Shown piece after piece: positions 1,447-10,500 of a stretch of 22,532 bases of DNA (within the stretch, counting starts at the first letter, position 1; each line of letters opens with the position of its first letter). Location of the stretch: positions 1-22,532 of the IMG/VR virus record IMGVR_UViG_3300026519_000068. One strand, written 5' to 3'. Origin of the DNA: a virus. Made by a program: the position numbers and the translations under genes. Below the pieces are notes generated by a model that was given only the letters and a program-made list of their open reading frames with translations, made no database searches and was not told the DNA's origin.

Positions 1447-2176
1447 TATTTTATGCTACGAGATGGGGTCAGCAAGGGACCCGGACACGAAGGCACCACT
1501 GAAATGGCCTTTGGTACGGGCAAGAGTAGAAGAAAGAATTGAGAACATCCTTAATGCAGTAGAAGCCAGTTCATGGCAGGGGTATTTAACAGGAGAGGGG
1601 AATTTCAGAGATGCACTCGGTACTATACTACCCTATAAAGGCACTCGTGATAGGTCTGAGCGGCCTTTTTGGTACTCTGGTGTTTATCACTACCTTAGAG
1701 ATAATCGAGGTGCAATTGTGGTACATGGGATGGAAGCTGATGATGCAATTTCCATCGAGCATACACTTGATGGGGATAGTACTATCATTTGTACTAGGGA
1801 CAAGGACTTACGAATGGTGCCGGGATGGCATTATACGTGGCCTTCATTTAACCAAGAAGAGCGAGAACCATTCTACATAGGAGAGATCGATGGACTACGG
1901 AATTTTTATAGCCAGCTCCTTACTGGTGACCGTTCTGATAACATACTGGGCCTATATAACGTGGGACCTAAGTCGGCTTGTGTACAAAGAGTACAAGAAT
2001 TCGAAACGGAACTCGACATGTTCCGAGAGGTCAAAGAACAGTACCGATTAAGGTTCGGATCGTACTGGGATATGTTCATGTGTGAGAACGGACGTCTCCT
2101 CTGGTTAAAACGAACCGAAGATGATGATTGGTATCATAGACAGAAGGAATTAGAACGTGTGGTTACAGATTCTTAA
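1424..2176 (+). CDS. FEN-family 5'-3' exonuclease / flap endonuclease
   Basis: The 250-aa product has the order of motifs seen in phage 5' nucleases (T5 D15, T4 RNase H and PolI N-domain family). An N-terminal LVDLDILCY includes the first metal-binding Asp. An arch-like YKGTRDRSERP lies at 71-81, EADD at 104-107, TRDKDL at 124-129 and GDRSDN at 168-173. GLYNVGPKSA at 176-185 is the helix-3-turn-helix that binds DNA. All expected acidic residues are present, so it should be active in removing 5' flaps or RNA primers or degrading DNA 5'-3'. The gene starts inside the methyltransferase gene, so the two are probably translated together. Confidence 0.92.
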   Translation: MHALVDLDILCYEMGSARDPDTKAPLKWPLVRARVEERIENILNAVEASSWQGYLTGEGNFRDALGTILPYKGTRDRSERPFWYSGVYHYLRDNRGAIVVHGMEADDAISIEHTLDGDSTIICTRDKDLRMVPGWHYTWPSFNQEEREPFYIGEIDGLRNFYSQLLTGDRSDNILGLYNVGPKSACVQRVQEFETELDMFREVKEQYRLRFGSYWDMFMCENGRLLWLKRTEDDDWYHRQKELERVVTDS

Positions 2177-2573
2177 GCTCCTGAACCCCTTAGGGATAAT
2201 CGAAGGGGTACTCGAGGACCGGAAGAACAAGAGAGAAGTGAAGTCCGCTATAAAACAGAAGCAGCTTGAGAACATCAAAGCTGGTAGAATAGCAGAGGCT
2301 GAGTGGAATCTTCAGGGGGCTAAGAACGCAGCTGGCTCTTGGAAGGATGAGTGGCTACTGGTACTATTCAGTATCCCTTTAATAGGCTCATTCCTACCCC
2401 CAATGGTACCACACATCACAAAGGGATTCGAAGTCTTAGCTACGATGCCAGCATGGTACCAAGGAGCTTTTGCTGTGGCAGTAGCTGCATCGTACGGGTA
2501 CCAGAAGTACGCTAAGACTCAGTTCAATAGGGCGTATACATTACCAAGTGAGAAGAATGGCACGTTGTCCTAG
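2157..2573 (+). CDS. Holin-like membrane protein
   Basis: The 138-aa protein has a charged N-terminal region (about 20-60, rich in Lys, Glu and Arg). Two hydrophobic stretches follow: about 66-85 (WLLVLFSIPLIGSFLPP) and about 98-115 (MPAWYQGAFAVAVAASYGYQ). The layout of basic/helical N-terminus, WKDEWLLVL and later hydrophobic pair resembles the phage and gene-transfer-agent 3TM holin family, where the C-terminal part sits in the inner membrane. The GTG start at 2157 overlaps the FEN gene by 20 bases; later starts would trim the N-terminus. An M15 endolysin and another small membrane protein lie downstream, supporting a lysis role. The family assignment is tentative. Confidence 0.6.
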   Translation: MWLQILKLLNPLGIIEGVLEDRKNKREVKSAIKQKQLENIKAGRIAEAEWNLQGAKNAAGSWKDEWLLVLFSIPLIGSFLPPMVPHITKGFEVLATMPAWYQGAFAVAVAASYGYQKYAKTQFNRAYTLPSEKNGTLS

Positions 2574-2727
2574 GTGCAGAGCACTTCTAGAAGACCAGTG
2601 GGCTATTTACTGCGATAACTGCTGGGATCAGATTGAAGAAGATTACCGCGAAGGATATACCGCAGGTCAGGGGGACTCTCCTGAACCGCCAGAGACGGAT
2701 ATGTCCGATCTGCAAGAAGACGATTAA
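2557..2727 (+). CDS. Small zinc-ribbon protein 1 (56 aa)
   Basis: This short ORF begins at an ATG inside the end of the holin-like gene, after AAGTGAGAAGA, and ends at TAA 2725-2727 within the endonuclease VII gene. It encodes MARCPRCRALL, then CDNCWDQ. The cysteine pairs at 4/7 and 19/22 are spaced for one zinc ion. The second half is acidic and ends EDD. The overlaps on both sides and the clear Cys-x2-Cys pairs make it a likely real gene. No function is known; similar ribbons bind DNA, RNA or protein. Confidence 0.65.
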   Translation: MARCPRCRALLEDQWAIYCDNCWDQIEEDYREGYTAGQGDSPEPPETDMSDLQEDD

Positions 2728-2965
2728 AGACCCAGTACTTGATCATGATCATGATACTGGGGCAGTAAGGGATACCCTCTGCAGGAATTGTAATAGGTTC
2801 GAGGGTAAGGTTCTACAATGGGCTAAGACTGTCCCTTTGGACAGAGTACAGCTCCTAAGAAATCTAGCGAGATACTGGGTACGACACAAACAGAACCGAC
2901 ATGGCTTGATCCACCCAGGTAAAACCAAACGGAGACGCCGTCGGAAGACTAAAAGGAGATCCTAA
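2633..2965 (+). CDS. Recombination endonuclease VII-like HNH nuclease
   Basis: The 110-aa product carries the endonuclease VII core: CPIC at 24-27, DHDHDTG at 37-43 and CRNCN at 50-54. The four cysteines bind structural zinc, and the Asp/His cluster and Asn form the beta-beta-alpha-metal active site. The family cleaves Holliday junctions and branched DNA before packaging. It starts at TTG 2633, which yields MKKITAKDIP, an N-terminus that looks usual for these proteins; no better start precedes the core. The protein ends in a very basic tail (about residues 97-110, RRRRRKTKRRS), likely to increase DNA binding. It overlaps zinc-ribbon gene 1 by 95 bases and the next gene by TAATG. Confidence 0.88.
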   Translation: MKKITAKDIPQVRGTLLNRQRRICPICKKTIKDPVLDHDHDTGAVRDTLCRNCNRFEGKVLQWAKTVPLDRVQLLRNLARYWVRHKQNRHGLIHPGKTKRRRRRKTKRRS

Positions 2966-3219
2966 TGGAACTGCATGAAATGGATACAGTACGTGAAGTG
3001 ATCGAAGCTCTTGTGGCAGAGATCGGACCTGACGCTGTGCCGGAAGAGATCGATGTAGACGGGGCTCTTGCCCTTGTTAGCACCGAAATCGCAGATACTG
3101 ATGTAGATGCTTTTATTGAAGCTGTAGCAGAAGGAGGCAATGATGCCCAGACAGAAGAAGGTACCGACTCTCAGGTGGAAGCAAGTGCCGAGGTCCAAGC
3201 TGAGTCGACTGTTGCTTAG
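2965..3219 (+). CDS. Highly acidic small protein (84 aa)
   Basis: The ATG overlaps the endonuclease stop as TAATG, with AGGAG just upstream (2954-2958). The 84-aa product contains a single Arg, no Lys and many Asp/Glu. Its first 55 residues look helical, with alternating hydrophobic and acidic positions (REVIEALVAEIGPDAVPEEI). The tail is a Glu/Ser/Ala-rich linker. I do not recognise it. Acidic phage microproteins can mimic DNA or bind basic partners, and the preceding nuclease has a very basic tail, but any link is speculation. Its last 80 bases overlap another ORF (3140-3289). Confidence 0.75.
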   Translation: MELHEMDTVREVIEALVAEIGPDAVPEEIDVDGALALVSTEIADTDVDAFIEAVAEGGNDAQTEEGTDSQVEASAEVQAESTVA

Positions 3220-3289
3220 CTCCGAAGCTAAACTTCAGCAGTGGGACGAAAATAGTAACCGGTACGTAGATGTACCATTCGTGGAGTAA
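3140..3289 (+). CDS. Hidden basic microprotein overlapping the acidic gene
   Basis: This 49-codon ORF opens at tandem ATGs (3140 and 3143). AGGAGG at 3133-3138 lies five bases before the second ATG. It runs in the +1 frame through the end of the acidic gene and continues across 3220-3289, which would otherwise be empty, stopping three bases before the next ATG at 3293. The product begins MMPRQKKVPTLRWKQVPRSK, strongly basic, and ends in a mixed segment (LQQWDENSNRYVDVPFVE). A strong ribosome site and an exact fit to the gap support it. Function is unknown. Confidence 0.55.
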   Translation: MMPRQKKVPTLRWKQVPRSKLSRLLLSSEAKLQQWDENSNRYVDVPFVE

Positions 3290-3292
3290 CCA

Positions 3293-3481
3293 ATGAAAGA
3301 GATCCTTAACATCTTCAAGACATGGTTCACGAAGTCATGGGATAAGATCGCTACCCTAGGCGCATCAGCAGGAGCTGGTGCTGGGGTACTGATGTTCATG
3401 TCTGAACCGGACCAATGGTTCTATGGGGCCATGGCTGGCCTCGTAGGTAGGCTGATCTCTTACGTGCAGATCAGGATCTGA
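3293..3481 (+). CDS. Small membrane protein, possible holin
   Basis: The 62-aa protein has an amphipathic, Lys/Trp-rich N-terminus (MKEILNIFKTWFTKSWDKI). A Gly/Ala-rich hydrophobic stretch follows at about 20-36 (TLGASAGAGAGVLMFM), then a second one at about 41-57 (QWFYGAMAGLVGRLISYV). Two short membrane segments and small size fit a class II holin or a related pore or antiholin. It lies between other small genes and one gene upstream of the endolysin region. The downstream start overlaps its stop as TGATG. With the holin-like gene at 2157 the cluster may have a holin/antiholin pair; the sequence does not show which is which. Confidence 0.55.
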   Translation: MKEILNIFKTWFTKSWDKIATLGASAGAGAGVLMFMSEPDQWFYGAMAGLVGRLISYVQIRI

Positions 3482-3630
3482 TGAAGAAGTCCCTTATAGC
3501 TCCCTGTCCTGAATGTGGCGCAAGAGATATCCTTGCTATCGTTCAGGACTGGGACGAGGGCATCATCAAGAGAACATGTTTAGTATGTGATCATACATGG
3601 ATAGGAACATTATACGATGACACGAAATAG
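3481..3630 (+). CDS. Small zinc-ribbon protein 2 (49 aa)
   Basis: The ATG at 3481 overlaps the previous stop as TGATG. The product MKKSLIAPCPECGARD continues to TCLVCDHTWIG, with Cys pairs at 9/12 and 33/36. The fold suggested is a single rubredoxin-like zinc ribbon with a Trp after the second knuckle. It is clearly similar to the next ORF (shared pattern PCP-C, about 25 residues, C-x2-C, then W-I-G and a final DD), so the two probably arose by duplication. Its function is unknown. Confidence 0.7.
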   Translation: MKKSLIAPCPECGARDILAIVQDWDEGIIKRTCLVCDHTWIGTLYDDTK

Positions 3631-3796
3631 AGATAATTTAAAATACTCGCTTTCGATTCCTTGCCCAAAATGTGAAGAGGTTAGTTTAACTATAACTGTA
3701 GAAGGGTGGGGGACAGAGAGTTGTAATATACAGAGAAAATGTTCATCCTGTGGGGCTAAATGGATAGGGGTAATTCAAGATGATGTTGAAGAGTGA
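3617..3796 (+). CDS. Small zinc-ribbon protein 3 (59 aa)
   Basis: This ORF overlaps protein 2 by 14 bases and the endolysin by 17 bases, so reading is continuous across the cluster. It encodes SIPCPKCEEV, then RKCSSCGAKWIGVIQDD. Cys pairs lie at 16/19 and 42/45, with a fifth Cys at 36. The C-terminal half mirrors protein 2. The local DNA is more A+T-rich than that of its neighbours, which may point to a separate origin. Function is unknown. Confidence 0.7.
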   Translation: MTRNRDNLKYSLSIPCPKCEEVSLTITVEGWGTESCNIQRKCSSCGAKWIGVIQDDVEE

Positions 3797-4088
3797 TGAG
3801 GTTTCGCTACAGAACCTAGTACCACAGGTAGTATTAGCATTGATTATCGTCAATGAAGTATACAATAGTTACGGAGTAGATCTTGTTATCACTAGTGCTA
3901 ATGATAGCATTCATTCTCGCGGGAGCCTACATTACTCGGGGAATGCTGTTGACCTTAGGACTCGTACTCTTCGAGAAGAGGATAGGCCTACGGTCGCAGA
4001 AGAAATCCAAAGGCGATTGAATAAGGACTTCGATGTGGTACTAGAATCAGACCATATTCACCTCGAGTGGCAGCCTAAATATGGGTGA
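3780..4088 (+). CDS. Endolysin, M15-type peptidase
   Basis: The 102-aa protein matches small phage D-Ala-D-Ala or L-Ala-D-Glu peptidases of the M15 family. SLHYSGNAVD supplies H51 and D58 as zinc ligands, with the SxHxxGxAxD pattern. DHIHLEW supplies H94 as third ligand, with H92 beside it, and E89 is the likely catalytic acid. These enzymes cut the peptide bridge of Gram-negative-type peptidoglycan at lysis. There is no signal peptide, so export through a holin is expected. The start has two adjacent ATGs (3780 and 3783). Two small membrane proteins upstream complete a plausible lysis set. The enzyme is short but has all key residues. Confidence 0.88.
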   Translation: MMLKSDEVSLQNLVPQVVLALIIVNEVYNSYGVDLVITSANDSIHSRGSLHYSGNAVDLRTRTLREEDRPTVAEEIQRRLNKDFDVVLESDHIHLEWQPKYG

Positions 4089-4290
4089 TCCAAGAGGTTG
4101 GTGCTATGAATGTGGGAACTACGGAGATATCCTCCAAGGGATCGGAGGGTACTGGTACTGCTATCAGTGTTGGGCTGATACGAACTATGAAGTAGCTAGT
4201 AGGGCTTTTAAGACGGACGAACAAGAAGATAAAAATGAAATTCATAAGAGAGGGGAGGGTGAAGCCCCAGAAGGGTTTCGGTCGAGTTAG
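4081..4290 (+). CDS. Small zinc-ribbon protein 4 (69 aa)
   Basis: The start lies eight bases inside the endolysin gene. The product has CYEC at 8-11 and CYQC at 27-30, embedded in Gly/Tyr/Trp-rich sequence (GGYWYCYQCWAD). A charged tail follows, with no cysteine. It resembles protein 5 around the second knuckle (GYWYCYQC versus GYRWCVEC). Function is unknown; a zinc-bound single ribbon is the likely fold. Confidence 0.7.
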   Translation: MGDPRGWCYECGNYGDILQGIGGYWYCYQCWADTNYEVASRAFKTDEQEDKNEIHKRGEGEAPEGFRSS

Positions 4291-4384
4291 TTGCCCCAAG
4301 TGTGGGGGATGGATGTACTACATGATCAACATATACGGGGGCTACAGATGGTGTGTAGAGTGCTCGTATAGAAAAGAGTTCTAG
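4235..4384 (+). CDS. Small zinc-ribbon protein 5 (49 aa)
   Basis: It opens at ATG 4235 inside gene 4 (overlap 56 bases) and stops at TAG 4382-4384, just before the gene-free zone. The product begins MKFIREGRVKPQKGFGRVSC. CPKC at 20-23 and CVEC at 40-43 flank aromatic residues. The N-terminus is basic, so nucleic-acid binding is possible. It is the last + strand gene, and its stop codon lies within a GC-rich inverted repeat. Confidence 0.65.
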   Translation: MKFIREGRVKPQKGFGRVSCPKCGGWMYYMINIYGGYRWCVECSYRKEF

Positions 4385-4423
4385 CAGGGGACTGCATGGC
4401 CCCTTCCTCCCGAGGCCCCTGCT
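4383..4423 (+). repeat. Inverted repeat at the end of the + strand operon
   Basis: AGCAGGGG (4383-4390) and CCCCTGCT (4416-4423) are perfect 8-bp arms around a 25-base loop, beginning in the stop codon of the last zinc-ribbon gene. No T-run follows directly. It may protect the 3' end of the message or work with the adjoining hairpin. Confidence 0.5.
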
Positions 4424-4428
4424 GAACA

Positions 4429-4473
4429 GGCCCCCGTAAGACCGCAATGGCAGGGGGCCACCTAATTTTCTTT
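4429..4473 (+). terminator. Probable first terminator of the + strand operon
   Basis: GGCCCCC (4429-4435) pairs with GGGGGCC (4453-4459) and is followed by ACCTAATTTTCTTT. The T-rich run starts a few bases late, so termination may be partial. It lies directly after the last + strand gene. Confidence 0.5.
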
Positions 4474-4491
4474 ATGTTGAGATCAACATAA
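4472..4491. promoter_or_regulatory. Perfect 9-bp dyad, possible operator
   Basis: TTATGTTGA and TCAACATAA (4472-4480 and 4483-4491) are a perfect dyad with a two-base centre. That is too tight for a good RNA hairpin but typical of a dimeric regulator's binding site. No repressor gene is visible in the window, so function is open. Confidence 0.4.
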
Positions 4492-4600
4492 GCCAAGACT
4501 GCCAAGAGGAGGCCTGAGTAGCTACAGGTGCTGTGATACTTGGCAGCAACTTGGGGAGTTGGCCCCATGGGCTCAGCGGTTCTTGGGGACTCCTCCAGCA
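4492..4600 (+). other. Gene-free, possibly structured RNA segment
   Basis: No credible ORF is seen. CTGCCAAG (4499-4506) pairs perfectly with CTTGGCAG (4539-4546), enclosing CCTG/CAGG. Further on, GGGGAGT and ACTCCTC can pair with one G-U, enclosing GGCCC/GGGCT. These nested pairings suggest a folded RNA, either a leader or a trans-acting RNA, but no family is recognised. Confidence 0.35.
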
Positions 4601-4603
4601 CTA

Positions 4604-4646
4604 CTAGGTATCATTATTGACAGATGTGGTACCTAGGAAGTAGAAT
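4604..4646 (+). promoter_or_regulatory. Sigma70-type promoter inside an inverted repeat
   Basis: TTGACA (4617-4622) is separated by 18 bases from TAGAAT (4641-4646), a perfect -35 and a 5/6 -10. The repeat arms CTAGGTA (4604-4610) and TACCTAG (4630-4636) flank the -35 and enter the spacer, where a regulator could block polymerase. No gene follows; a terminator lies about 40 bases downstream. Confidence 0.55.
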
Positions 4647-4652
4647 CCGAAC

Positions 4653-4718
4653 CCTGGCTTAATCAGGTAGTACGATTCACCCGAAAGCCCCTGGTCTAGC
4701 GGCCAGGGGTTTTCTTTT
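4653..4718 (+). ncRNA. Candidate phage small RNA
   Basis: The promoter at 4617-4646 would start a transcript near 4653, ending at the terminator tail near 4718, giving an RNA of about 65 bases with no ORF. It could form a hairpin CCTG-loop-CAGG (in CCTGGCTTAATCAGG), a single-stranded stretch GTACGATTCACCCGAAAG, then the terminator stem. That is the layout of many bacterial small RNAs. The start site is inferred and no expression data are available. Confidence 0.4.
4688..4718 (+). terminator. Strong rho-independent terminator, + strand
   Basis: CCCCTGG (4688-4694) and CCAGGGG (4703-4709) form a perfect 7-bp stem with an 8-base loop, followed at once by TTTTCTTTT. It ends rightward transcription before the opposing late operon. 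Confidence 0.85.
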
Positions 4719-4724
4719 GCCCAC

Positions 4725-4755
4725 AAAAAAGCCCGGGGGATCACTCCGCCCGGGC
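4725..4755 (-). terminator. Rho-independent terminator of the late operon, - strand
   Basis: GCCCGGG (4731-4737) and CCCGGGC (4749-4755) form a perfect GC-rich stem. On the - strand it is followed by six T (AAAAAA at 4725-4730 on the + strand). It lies past the last - strand gene and opposes the + terminator a few bases away. Confidence 0.85.
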
Positions 4756-4781
4756 AATGCCCTAAGGTAGGGGTCTAATTG

Positions 4782-4890
4782 CCCCTCAGACGGCCTGTAT
4801 GGCTCTCTGAGAGGCTTTTGAGGGGTACCCAGTAGGTAGGTATAGGTCTAGAGAACGTCGCTCAGAGAGGCTTACAGAGCGTCTGAGGGG
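4782..4890 (-). other. Structured 3' region of the late operon with two alternative pairings
   Basis: CCCCTCAGACG (4782-4792) is the exact complement of CGTCTGAGGGG (4880-4890), an 11-bp stem enclosing 87 bases. The same left arm can pair instead with TGAGGGG at 4819-4825 (7 bp). Related GAGAGGCTT sequences occur at about 4809-4818 and 4865-4873. No gene lies here. It could be a stable 3' untranslated RNA, or a structure read from either strand. Confidence 0.5.
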
Positions 4891-4908
4891 GTATTACCTA
4901 TTGGCTAT

Positions 4909-7562: not shown

Positions 7563-10500
7563 TATCGTAGCTCCTGAAGCCACTGGATAGCTTCATCCTG
7601 TCCTTCAAACGGGGTCATATTCTTGAGCCTTGTATAGAATGCATCATCGTACAGGTGAGGAACAGGCTTGTTTAAGCCCTTAACTATAGTCTCTGCGAGT
7701 TTAGTCCCTGTACCTGGACGATTTAAATCATTAGTTGCTAGTTGTTTGATCTTGTAATTATAGATATACATCCACTCATCTTCATCGAGGATCTCTCTCA
7801 TCCCGCGAGCATGGAGGTCTAGTTCTTCCATGACCTTCAAAGGATCTTCTTTCCCATCCATAGCATCAGCTACTTTACTAACTGCGTACTTGTAGTACGT
7901 CTTAGCTATGTTATCTAGGTTAGAGGTGATCTTCTCCTTCTGAGGATTCCCCATCACCCCCTGGAGGTATATCAGTTCTTCTTGTACCTGTCTTTGTCGA
8001 CGGGGCTGAAGGCCGAAGTACTGACGCATCCGTGCCTCAGCATCTGTGATCTCTACCCCTAATCTGCCAGAGTTAGAGATATGACGATTCATAGCGTACT
8101 CAGTTCTACCACGAACGAAGTCACCGTACATCGGAACGAATCTCTTAGTGAATTCCTCTGCCAAGAAGAATGCTTCATCAGGGTTAGGTATCCTTTGTGG
8201 GATACCATTCGTTACCCCGAACATAGCCTTCGTCATAGTGGCTACTTCGCCCAAAGACTTCCCTAATTGATACGCGGGGCCAAGAGCGAACTCAGCCACA
8301 GAGATATCTGACAGAATGAATGCATCTATCAGCGTACCTACGGGGTTCCCGAAAATTCCTCTTCCACCAGCTATGCCAGAGAACGGGCCATATGAGGTAC
8401 TGAATTCTACATCTGTGAAATAATCTAGGTTATCGTCATCCGTAAGACCAAGAGTGAAATTCACTAAGGTACCAACTATGCCCTCTTCCACAGCTTGGTT
8501 GAACTCAGGAGAAACTTCGATGCCACTCTCTGCTAAGAAAGATTCCCATAGCTTATTCAGCCCGAACGCTCCTGTTCCGTATAAGCCTAGCTGTATCGCT
8601 GCTATTCGAGCTTTCTCCTTGCCATTGAATGTATCACTAGCGAACTTCCCGACCGTCTTCCCGAAAGCTTTCTTAGGCAGAAGTACCTGAGTAGCCTTGG
8701 TAGTATGAGAGAGGAACTGGAACATCAAACCGAGAACGCCTTTCTGGAATTGAAGCGCTCCCGCTTTAGTCATATTGAAAGCTAGGTTCTCAGCGTCGCC
8801 AGCTATAGTAGCTAGGTTATCGGCTCTATCCCAGAGGTGAGCTGCCTTAGGGTTCTCTTTGATCCACTTATTTCTAGCAGCGAGGAATGCTGCTATTCTG
8901 TGGGTCTCTTCCCCTAAGTCGAATCCAATACGACGAAATACTCGCCGTACATCATTGAAGTAGTCTACCCCCTTCCCAATAACAGACCGCTTTCCGATAT
9001 TCCTATCGACGGATACTAGCCCAGCGTATTGGTGGGAGTCAATACTAGCTGTGATACCAGTTCTGCGGAACGCATCAACGAAATTCTCATATTCCTTAAC
9101 CGACATCCCTAAGGCCTTAGCGCCACGGATAGCTTGCTTATCCCAGAACTCAGTAGTTCTGAATAACATCCCATTCATCAAGCCCCAGTACTCCTGCATC
9201 CCCTTCCTAGACGTGAAGTACTTCAAGCCATGATCTACTCCTAAGTACACAGAGATCTGCTGAGCTTGGAGGAACAGCTGACGTACAGGTTTGAAGATCA
9301 AGAACGTTGTGAATGCTGCTCCTTTAATTGCATTAATAGGATTCCGGTGCCTATTACGGAGCACTCTGGTCTGTATAGATCTAGACCAAGAAGTATCAAA
9401 GGTCTCAGATAGCCACCCAGCGAAGTTAATAGCTAGATCTCTGAAAGCCTTCGTGGATCTGGAATCATCTATGCCAGCTAGGAGCTTGATATGTTCTTGA
9501 AGAGCGACAGCATCGTTGAATACATCTTTCTCTATGTCTTGAGACGGACGAACTAGGTCATTAGTATCGAATGAGAACCGCCCTGTCCTGCTGTACTTAG
9601 CGTACTTCGCTTCCCAGTTCTTAGCTAACTTATCGACCACGAGATCTATAGTACCCGCTCGTGCAGCCCTGGCCCTACCAGCTAGGATAGAGTCCGTAAC
9701 TGACTTCAGTTCACGTCTCTCGTCTAGACCTTTGATCTCTACGCCACGACGTGATGTATACAATTGACCCGAGTTCTCGAGGTACTCAAGACTGACGCCA
9801 TTAGCGTACTCCCTATCAGCCCGTAGCTCCTTAGATTCTACTACTACGTATTCATCATTCGCCTTAGCTTCGAGATCCATTCGGGCCTTATCAGCTAGAG
9901 CATCAGATTTATTCGTGTACATCCGTACAGTGACTAACTCTTCGCCAGAGAATACGCCATCAACCTGACGCTTCACCTTCCTCTTCAGGATATACGGAGC
10001 ATCGTATATTCGGCTGATGTACCCAGGAAGATCTTGGATTACTTCAGCGGGGAGTTGATTAATACTCGCATGCTTAGTATCTTTCTTGAGGTATACATAG
10101 TTCGTCCACTGACCTTTCTTAGTCTTCAGTGGCTGAGTAAGACGGATGAATTTTCCGCCGTTCTCGTTAACAGTACGAATCAGATCATCAGTAACAGGGA
10201 CCGTATCACCTAGATCTACATCCCAGATCTCTCTGATCTGAGTTCCTGTTACTTGTCTACCATCAGGAGATGATCTGATAGTCCTAAGTTCCGCAGAAGT
10301 AACCTCGCGGCCTAAGAATTTAGTAGTACCACCGGGTATCCCCTTCCTGAGGGTTACTTCTTTTACGCCATCTGCCACAAGGCGACGACGTACTGAATCA
10401 TTGATGAGCTTCCGTACTAGCTTCTGATGTAGTTCAACTGACTTATACGCTTCAATTAAACGCTCAGGGTTCTTCTCTTTAGCAAAGAACTCAGTCAAGA

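Follow-up and report, generated by a model that had tools for sequence, protein, structure and literature searches.

Why would a phage crowd five small genes, each encoding two Cys-x2-Cys (CxxC) pairs, into less than 2 kb at the end of a single operon? The question is raised by IMG/VR record IMGVR_UViG_3300026519_000068, a 22.5 kb fragment of a Zobellviridae-like podovirus genome that was analysed whole and is here called the window. We propose, with moderate confidence, that the five open reading frames (ORFs) encode accessory, host-directed zinc-ribbon microproteins with rapid turnover; their translation, zinc binding and host-directed function we infer. The ORFs, with the CxxC pairs (knuckles) of each, and the endonuclease VII gene among them are as follows.

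2557 to 2727, plus strand: ORF1, 56 amino acids (aa) from an ATG or 59 aa from a GTG at 2548; CPRC/CDNC; acidic, net charge -12.
2633 to 2965, plus strand: endonuclease VII, from a TTG start within ORF1 (95-nucleotide (nt) overlap); PF02945 E 1.7e-15, phrog_423 E 1.3e-30.
3481 to 3630, plus strand: ORF2, 49 aa; CPEC/CLVC; start codon overlapping the stop of the preceding gene; paralogue of ORF3.
3617 to 3796, plus strand: ORF3, 59 aa; CPKC/CSSC; paralogue of ORF2.
4081 to 4290, plus strand: ORF4, 69 aa; CYEC/CYQC; acidic low-complexity tail; called from sequence and tiling, with no family match.
4235 to 4384, plus strand: ORF5, 49 aa; CPKC/CVEC; basic, net charge +7, pI 10.2; last gene of the operon.

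An earlier note on this DNA had placed five ORFs here with two C-x2-C pairs in each, every one overlapping or abutting a neighbour, and had counted six zinc-type proteins in under 2 kb with endonuclease VII included. All of this holds: the five ORFs are present at these coordinates, the overlaps run from 1 to 95 nt, and six double-CxxC ORFs are found. Between 1424 and 4384 only 3 nt are uncovered with the five ORFs, against 656 nt without them. Under a first-order Markov model of the region, in which ORFs of 30-120 aa with double CxxC were counted in 2,000 simulated sequences, a mean of 0.0065 is expected by chance in 1.9 kb where six are present (endonuclease VII included), and two or more were found in 0 of the 2,000. 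Across the whole window, double CxxC occurs in 6 of 152 ORFs of this size, all six in this region. Judged at the level of sequence, the five ORFs are in all likelihood real genes.

ORF2 and ORF3, which had been taken for a duplicate pair, are true paralogues, with 39% identity, a BLASTP E of 2e-10 and a z of 11.7 against shuffles with fixed cysteines; the pair has a low dN/dS at a dS that is saturated. The common second knuckle suggested for ORF4 and ORF5 fared worse: likeness beyond the cysteine motif is insignificant (z 2.3 against Cys-fixed shuffles), and we reject their paralogy. ORF4 reaches z 4.4 against a homologue of ORF1 in a related phage (locus L013), which as one among 91 comparisons is a lead only; ORF1 and ORF4 may nonetheless have a common origin.

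What happens to these genes in related phages? In the nearest relatives, L012 and L013, whose endonuclease VII is 74% and 70% identical to that of the window, homologues of ORF1 (L012 5913-6116 and L013 5360-5527; 55-67 aa) stand at the same site, with a long overlap into the endonuclease VII start and the cysteines kept. Against Cys-fixed shuffles the two homologues give z 3.1 and 4.4, and compared with each other they give a dN/dS of 0.47/1.52. The earlier note had looked to close relatives for loss of the ORFs, their frames or their cysteines; ORF1 is retained there with frame and cysteines intact, and ORFs 2-5 are absent. Because these relatives are only ~60% identical to the window in the exonuclease and bear other mini zinc ribbons (after the homologue of the gene at 215-805, and near the polymerase), we read this absence as turnover rather than refutation. 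A scan of genome contigs with endonuclease VII returned a sole, distant match, in Actinomadura.

The wider clade is rich in such ORFs. Across 80 exonuclease-bearing loci, 58 small double-CxxC ORFs lie on the coding strand versus 5 on the opposite strand. With near-identical loci removed, the closer group has 29 versus 1, or 1.37 per 10 kb, and the farther group 16 versus 3, or 0.51 per 10 kb, in loci that are related by descent and in identity classes that were set after the data had been seen; a comparison set of 54 other phage loci has 0.23 per 10 kb with the two strands counted together. The clusters most like that of the window are those of L084, L085, L087 and L088, which each have between two and four mini ribbons 34-43 aa long, in part overlapping or in tandem. 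Different whole ribbon ORFs occupy one site in these four phages while the flanks can still be aligned, which amounts to cassette replacement; the exchange of ribbon genes is better studied in them than in the window. Two L084/L087 pairs give dN/dS of 0.27/1.32 and 0.05/0.30 with all four cysteines kept, and four L012/L013 mini-ribbon pairs give 0.18-0.31 with all knuckle cysteines kept; the ratio is below 0.35 in both sets, albeit as rough estimates from 40-50 codons. The sister-phage mini ribbons are, by this sequence measure, under purifying selection.

Curated families do not capture the five ORFs. None scores above cut-off for any family in Pfam, PHROGs, NCBIfam or PADLOC. The best sub-threshold matches of ORF2 are TIGR02443 (E 0.00026; 20.8 of 49.45 bits) and DUF7340 (E 0.00026). 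Membership of Lar is rejected on scores (PF14354, 17.6 and 17.8 bits against a cut-off of 28.6; TIGR03655, 14 against 39.6), as is that of the TFIIS ribbon PF01096 (ORF2, 16.7 bits against 21), and Com is rejected with no match. Two matches from IMG/VR scans were also set aside: that in L153 is to the end of a 164-aa protein on a phage-like contig, alike in the knuckle region only and with no common context, and that in L154 is to the C terminus of a ribonucleotide reductase. Ordinary homology searches miss these ribbons because their mutual similarity rests almost only on cysteines.

Structure prediction is consistent with the zinc-ribbon character that had been proposed. The AlphaFold2 models (mean pLDDT 81 for each) show ORF2 as a three-stranded beta ribbon and ORF5 as all-beta with four short strands, and in both the knuckles are brought together. 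The nearest solved folds to ORF2 are the NrdR zinc ribbon (Z 5.8) and RPB9/TFIIS (Z 3.7-4.5 over 38-40 residues), with Foldseek E-values that are not significant. NrdR combines a ribbon with an ATP-cone, and ORF2, at 49 aa, matches the ribbon only. A likeness between the WDEG turn of ORF2 and the "DE" acidic hairpin of TFIIS was discarded, as ORF3 is without the turn and D-E-G is a common turn. The fold leaves function undecided, since ribbons of this type have DNA, RNA, polymerases or other proteins as their partners. Charge is more suggestive: it is net negative in four of the five ORFs, ORF5 being the exception, and in 12 of the 16 mini ribbons tested. This mostly acidic composition suggests protein-binding adaptors or inhibitors.

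Patchy distribution, swapping and acidity together lead us to favor host-directed protein adaptors or inhibitors, rather than proteins that regulate conserved phage genes. Hypothetically, ORFs 1-5 would be co-transcribed as the part of the replication operon farthest from its promoter, each encoding a single zinc ribbon of 49-69 aa that would fold round one Zn(II) bound by its two C-x2-C knuckles (the fold is modelled for ORFs 2 and 5, and zinc binding is presumed). The phage clade would draw on a fluid pool of mini ribbons that are inserted, duplicated (as in ORF2/ORF3) and swapped wherever conserved replication genes leave gaps. Given the prevailing acidity, most ribbons would be small protein binders, adapting or inhibiting host machines such as RNA polymerase, the ribosome, nucleases or defence proteins, and the basic ORF5 would be the one good candidate for a nucleic-acid binder. 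Host-takeover or adaptor roles, among those that the earlier note had put forward, would be compatible with a distribution that is patchy and marked by swapping and with the predominance of acidic proteins.

Several observations weigh against this proposal. Its host-directed part is argued solely from turnover and charge. The codon-usage score is neutral and places ORF5 inside the range of spurious ORFs, a score that is indecisive here in that short Cys-/Trp-rich ORFs score low, and the Shine-Dalgarno signals are weak. None of the fold matches reaches significance, and a common fold among zinc ribbons does not imply a common function. Against 50,697 phage records the best match of ORFs 1-5 was E 0.4 (ORF2), and ORFs 2-5 had no convincing homologue in those records or in IMG/VR scans with ORF3, the ORF2/3 pair and ORF5 as queries. 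These same points, namely the lack of homologues, codon scores that are neutral or negative and the absence from the nearest relatives, speak for the view that ORFs 2-5 are reading frames that arose by chance or are in decay among the lysis genes, with ORF1 the only gene. We consider that very improbable, as no simulated sequence had even two such ORFs, ORF2 and ORF3 are paralogous with matching cysteines, and the operon is tiled exactly by the ORFs.

If the five are real, they might instead be DNA- or RNA-binding regulators of the phage's own genes, in the manner of Mu Com or of NrdR/TFIIS, each switching the gene next to it. The NrdR, RPB9 and TFIIS ribbons nearest to ORF2, the strongly basic ORF5 and the precedent of Mu Com, a small phage zinc-finger protein that acts on mRNA (PMC6483171), all speak for such a role. 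We nevertheless find it unlikely: four of the five proteins are acidic, no Com, NrdR or TFIIS Pfam match exceeds its cut-off (the TFIIS ribbon is sub-threshold at E 0.0066), and regulators of conserved genes should themselves be conserved, whereas the nearest relatives lack ORFs 2-5. A role in counter-defence, for instance as Lar-like restriction-alleviation proteins, draws on cassette swapping, which is typical of anti-defence genes, and on sub-threshold matches of ORF2 and ORF3 to PF14354 (E 0.0046 and 0.004) and of ORF2 to TIGR03655 (E 0.048). However, the matches are well under the curated cut-offs, unrelated zinc ribbons score alike, PADLOC gave no significant match and the phage already has a DNA methyltransferase (phrog_757), and we judge this role to be quite improbable.

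Returning to accessory, host-directed ribbons, we can also suggest, more tentatively and as a possibility short of even chances, that the clade keeps exchangeable cassettes of many unrelated single ribbons of 35-70 aa, inserted, duplicated or swapped between replication genes, as renewable host-directed adaptors or anti-defence proteins. Should the finding as a whole be confirmed, a marine phage family would provide a compact, defined group of microproteins whose genomic location is known, and the single zinc ribbon would be a favored scaffold for fast-evolving phage accessory proteins. Annotation would benefit as well, since such ORFs are called in some genomes and missed in others. The expectation that they fall below gene-calling limits stood in part: Celeribacter phage P12053L and phage T5S1 have similar ORFs on record as hypothetical proteins (gp20 and ORF49, respectively), but in Roseobacter phage CRP-5 (L163; MK613347.1) a 62-aa ORF at 8214-8402 with knuckles CVSC/CGFC, across the gap between annotated gp17 and gp18, is unannotated and is probably an overlooked mini zinc-ribbon gene.

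The genomic setting is Zobellviridae-like. The best matches of the portal are Siovirus, Veravirus and other Zobellviridae (46-49% identity), and that of the exonuclease is phage GX1-k141_326647, likewise classed in this family. The rightward replication genes encode a phrog_862 protein, a methyltransferase, the exonuclease and endonuclease VII; structural genes run leftward, and the two arms converge at ~4.4-4.9 kb. With its related portal and convergent replication and structural arms, the phage fits the Zobellviridae on this genomic evidence, formal taxonomy aside. The remaining genes around the ORFs are these.

2157 to 2573, plus strand: phrog_2524 membrane protein (E 7.6e-27), upstream of ORF1; phage relatives are labelled TMhelix / DUF3154.
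2965 to 3219, plus strand: acidic 84-aa protein with no family match; a similar acidic ORF lies at the same place in L013.
3140 to 3289, plus strand: 49-aa protein with KKxPTLRW and LQxWxxxxNxYxDxP motifs; 40-53% identity to L012 6447-6590 and L013 5894-6043.
3293 to 3481, plus strand: hydrophobic 62-aa protein, called from sequence; phrog_36950 E 0.009 (weak).
3780 to 4088, plus strand: M15-like peptidoglycan peptidase, candidate endolysin; PF08291 E 0.0015, under cut-off.

Context suggests that the phrog_2524 protein is holin-like; no homology was found between it and an opposite-strand membrane protein of L012. The 62-aa protein is probably transmembrane and a candidate holin. HYSGNAVD and HIH motifs (pattern HxxGxAxD ... 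HxH) in the peptidase are kept in seven IMG/VR relatives, and it is probably a seventh zinc protein next to the ORFs. With these three proteins the label "lysis region" was fair, the peptidase resting on motifs with a Pfam score under cut-off. The 84-aa and 49-aa genes overlap by 80 nt; the position of the latter is kept in L012 and L013, which alone were recovered when IMG/VR was scanned with it, and that of the former in L013. The methyltransferase-like gene (868-1446; phrog_757 E 2.7e-66) is flanked by the phrog_862 gene and the exonuclease; in L012 its site is taken by a short ORF and two mini zinc ribbons.

Between the convergent arms, ~520 nt (4385-4908) are without an obvious gene. The part at 4385-4725 is strongly structured as RNA (-138.9 kcal/mol, z -2.9), and a near-consensus sigma-70-like site at 4617-4646 (TTGACA-18-TAGAAT) lies shortly upstream of a hairpin and T-run at ~4686-4712. 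An Rfam search of the intergenic region gave no match; the region could be the source of a short RNA or could simply terminate both operons. A GC-rich hairpin followed by a minus-strand T-run at 4727-4760, spotted by eye, is probably the terminator of the leftward structural operon, beside its rightward counterpart.

How, then, does this cluster compare with known systems? One counterpart is gp20 of Celeribacter phage P12053L, a 60-aa double-CxxC ORF in the early operon of a related Zobellviridae phage, yet the cultured or named Zobellviridae examined have 0-1 plausible mini ribbons per genome and the window has five together. The YheV/TIGR02443, DUF2387 and TFIIS/RPB9 ribbons resemble ORF2 in sub-threshold sequence matches and, for TFIIS/RPB9, perhaps in the predicted fold, but the scores are under curated cut-offs and no other domain or context is in common. 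Mu Com, a phage zinc-finger translational activator (PMC6483171), is likewise a small phage zinc-binding protein, as ours are presumed to be; unlike Com, they have no Com-family match, no mom gene and acidic composition in four of five. Bacillus phage G carries ~35 zinc-ribbon copies in a lineage-specific expansion, suggested to be transcription factors or structural DNA-binding proteins (PMC7824862), and shares with the window the presence of many small zinc ribbons within one phage genome. The expansion in phage G, a jumbo phage, consists of copies of a single family, whereas here we see mostly unrelated ribbons, with clear paralogy in ORF2/ORF3 only, and overlapping gene tiles in a group of ~45-kb podoviruses. 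Serial small zinc ribbons have thus already been seen in phages, and the cluster described here would be a fast-changing variant of that theme.

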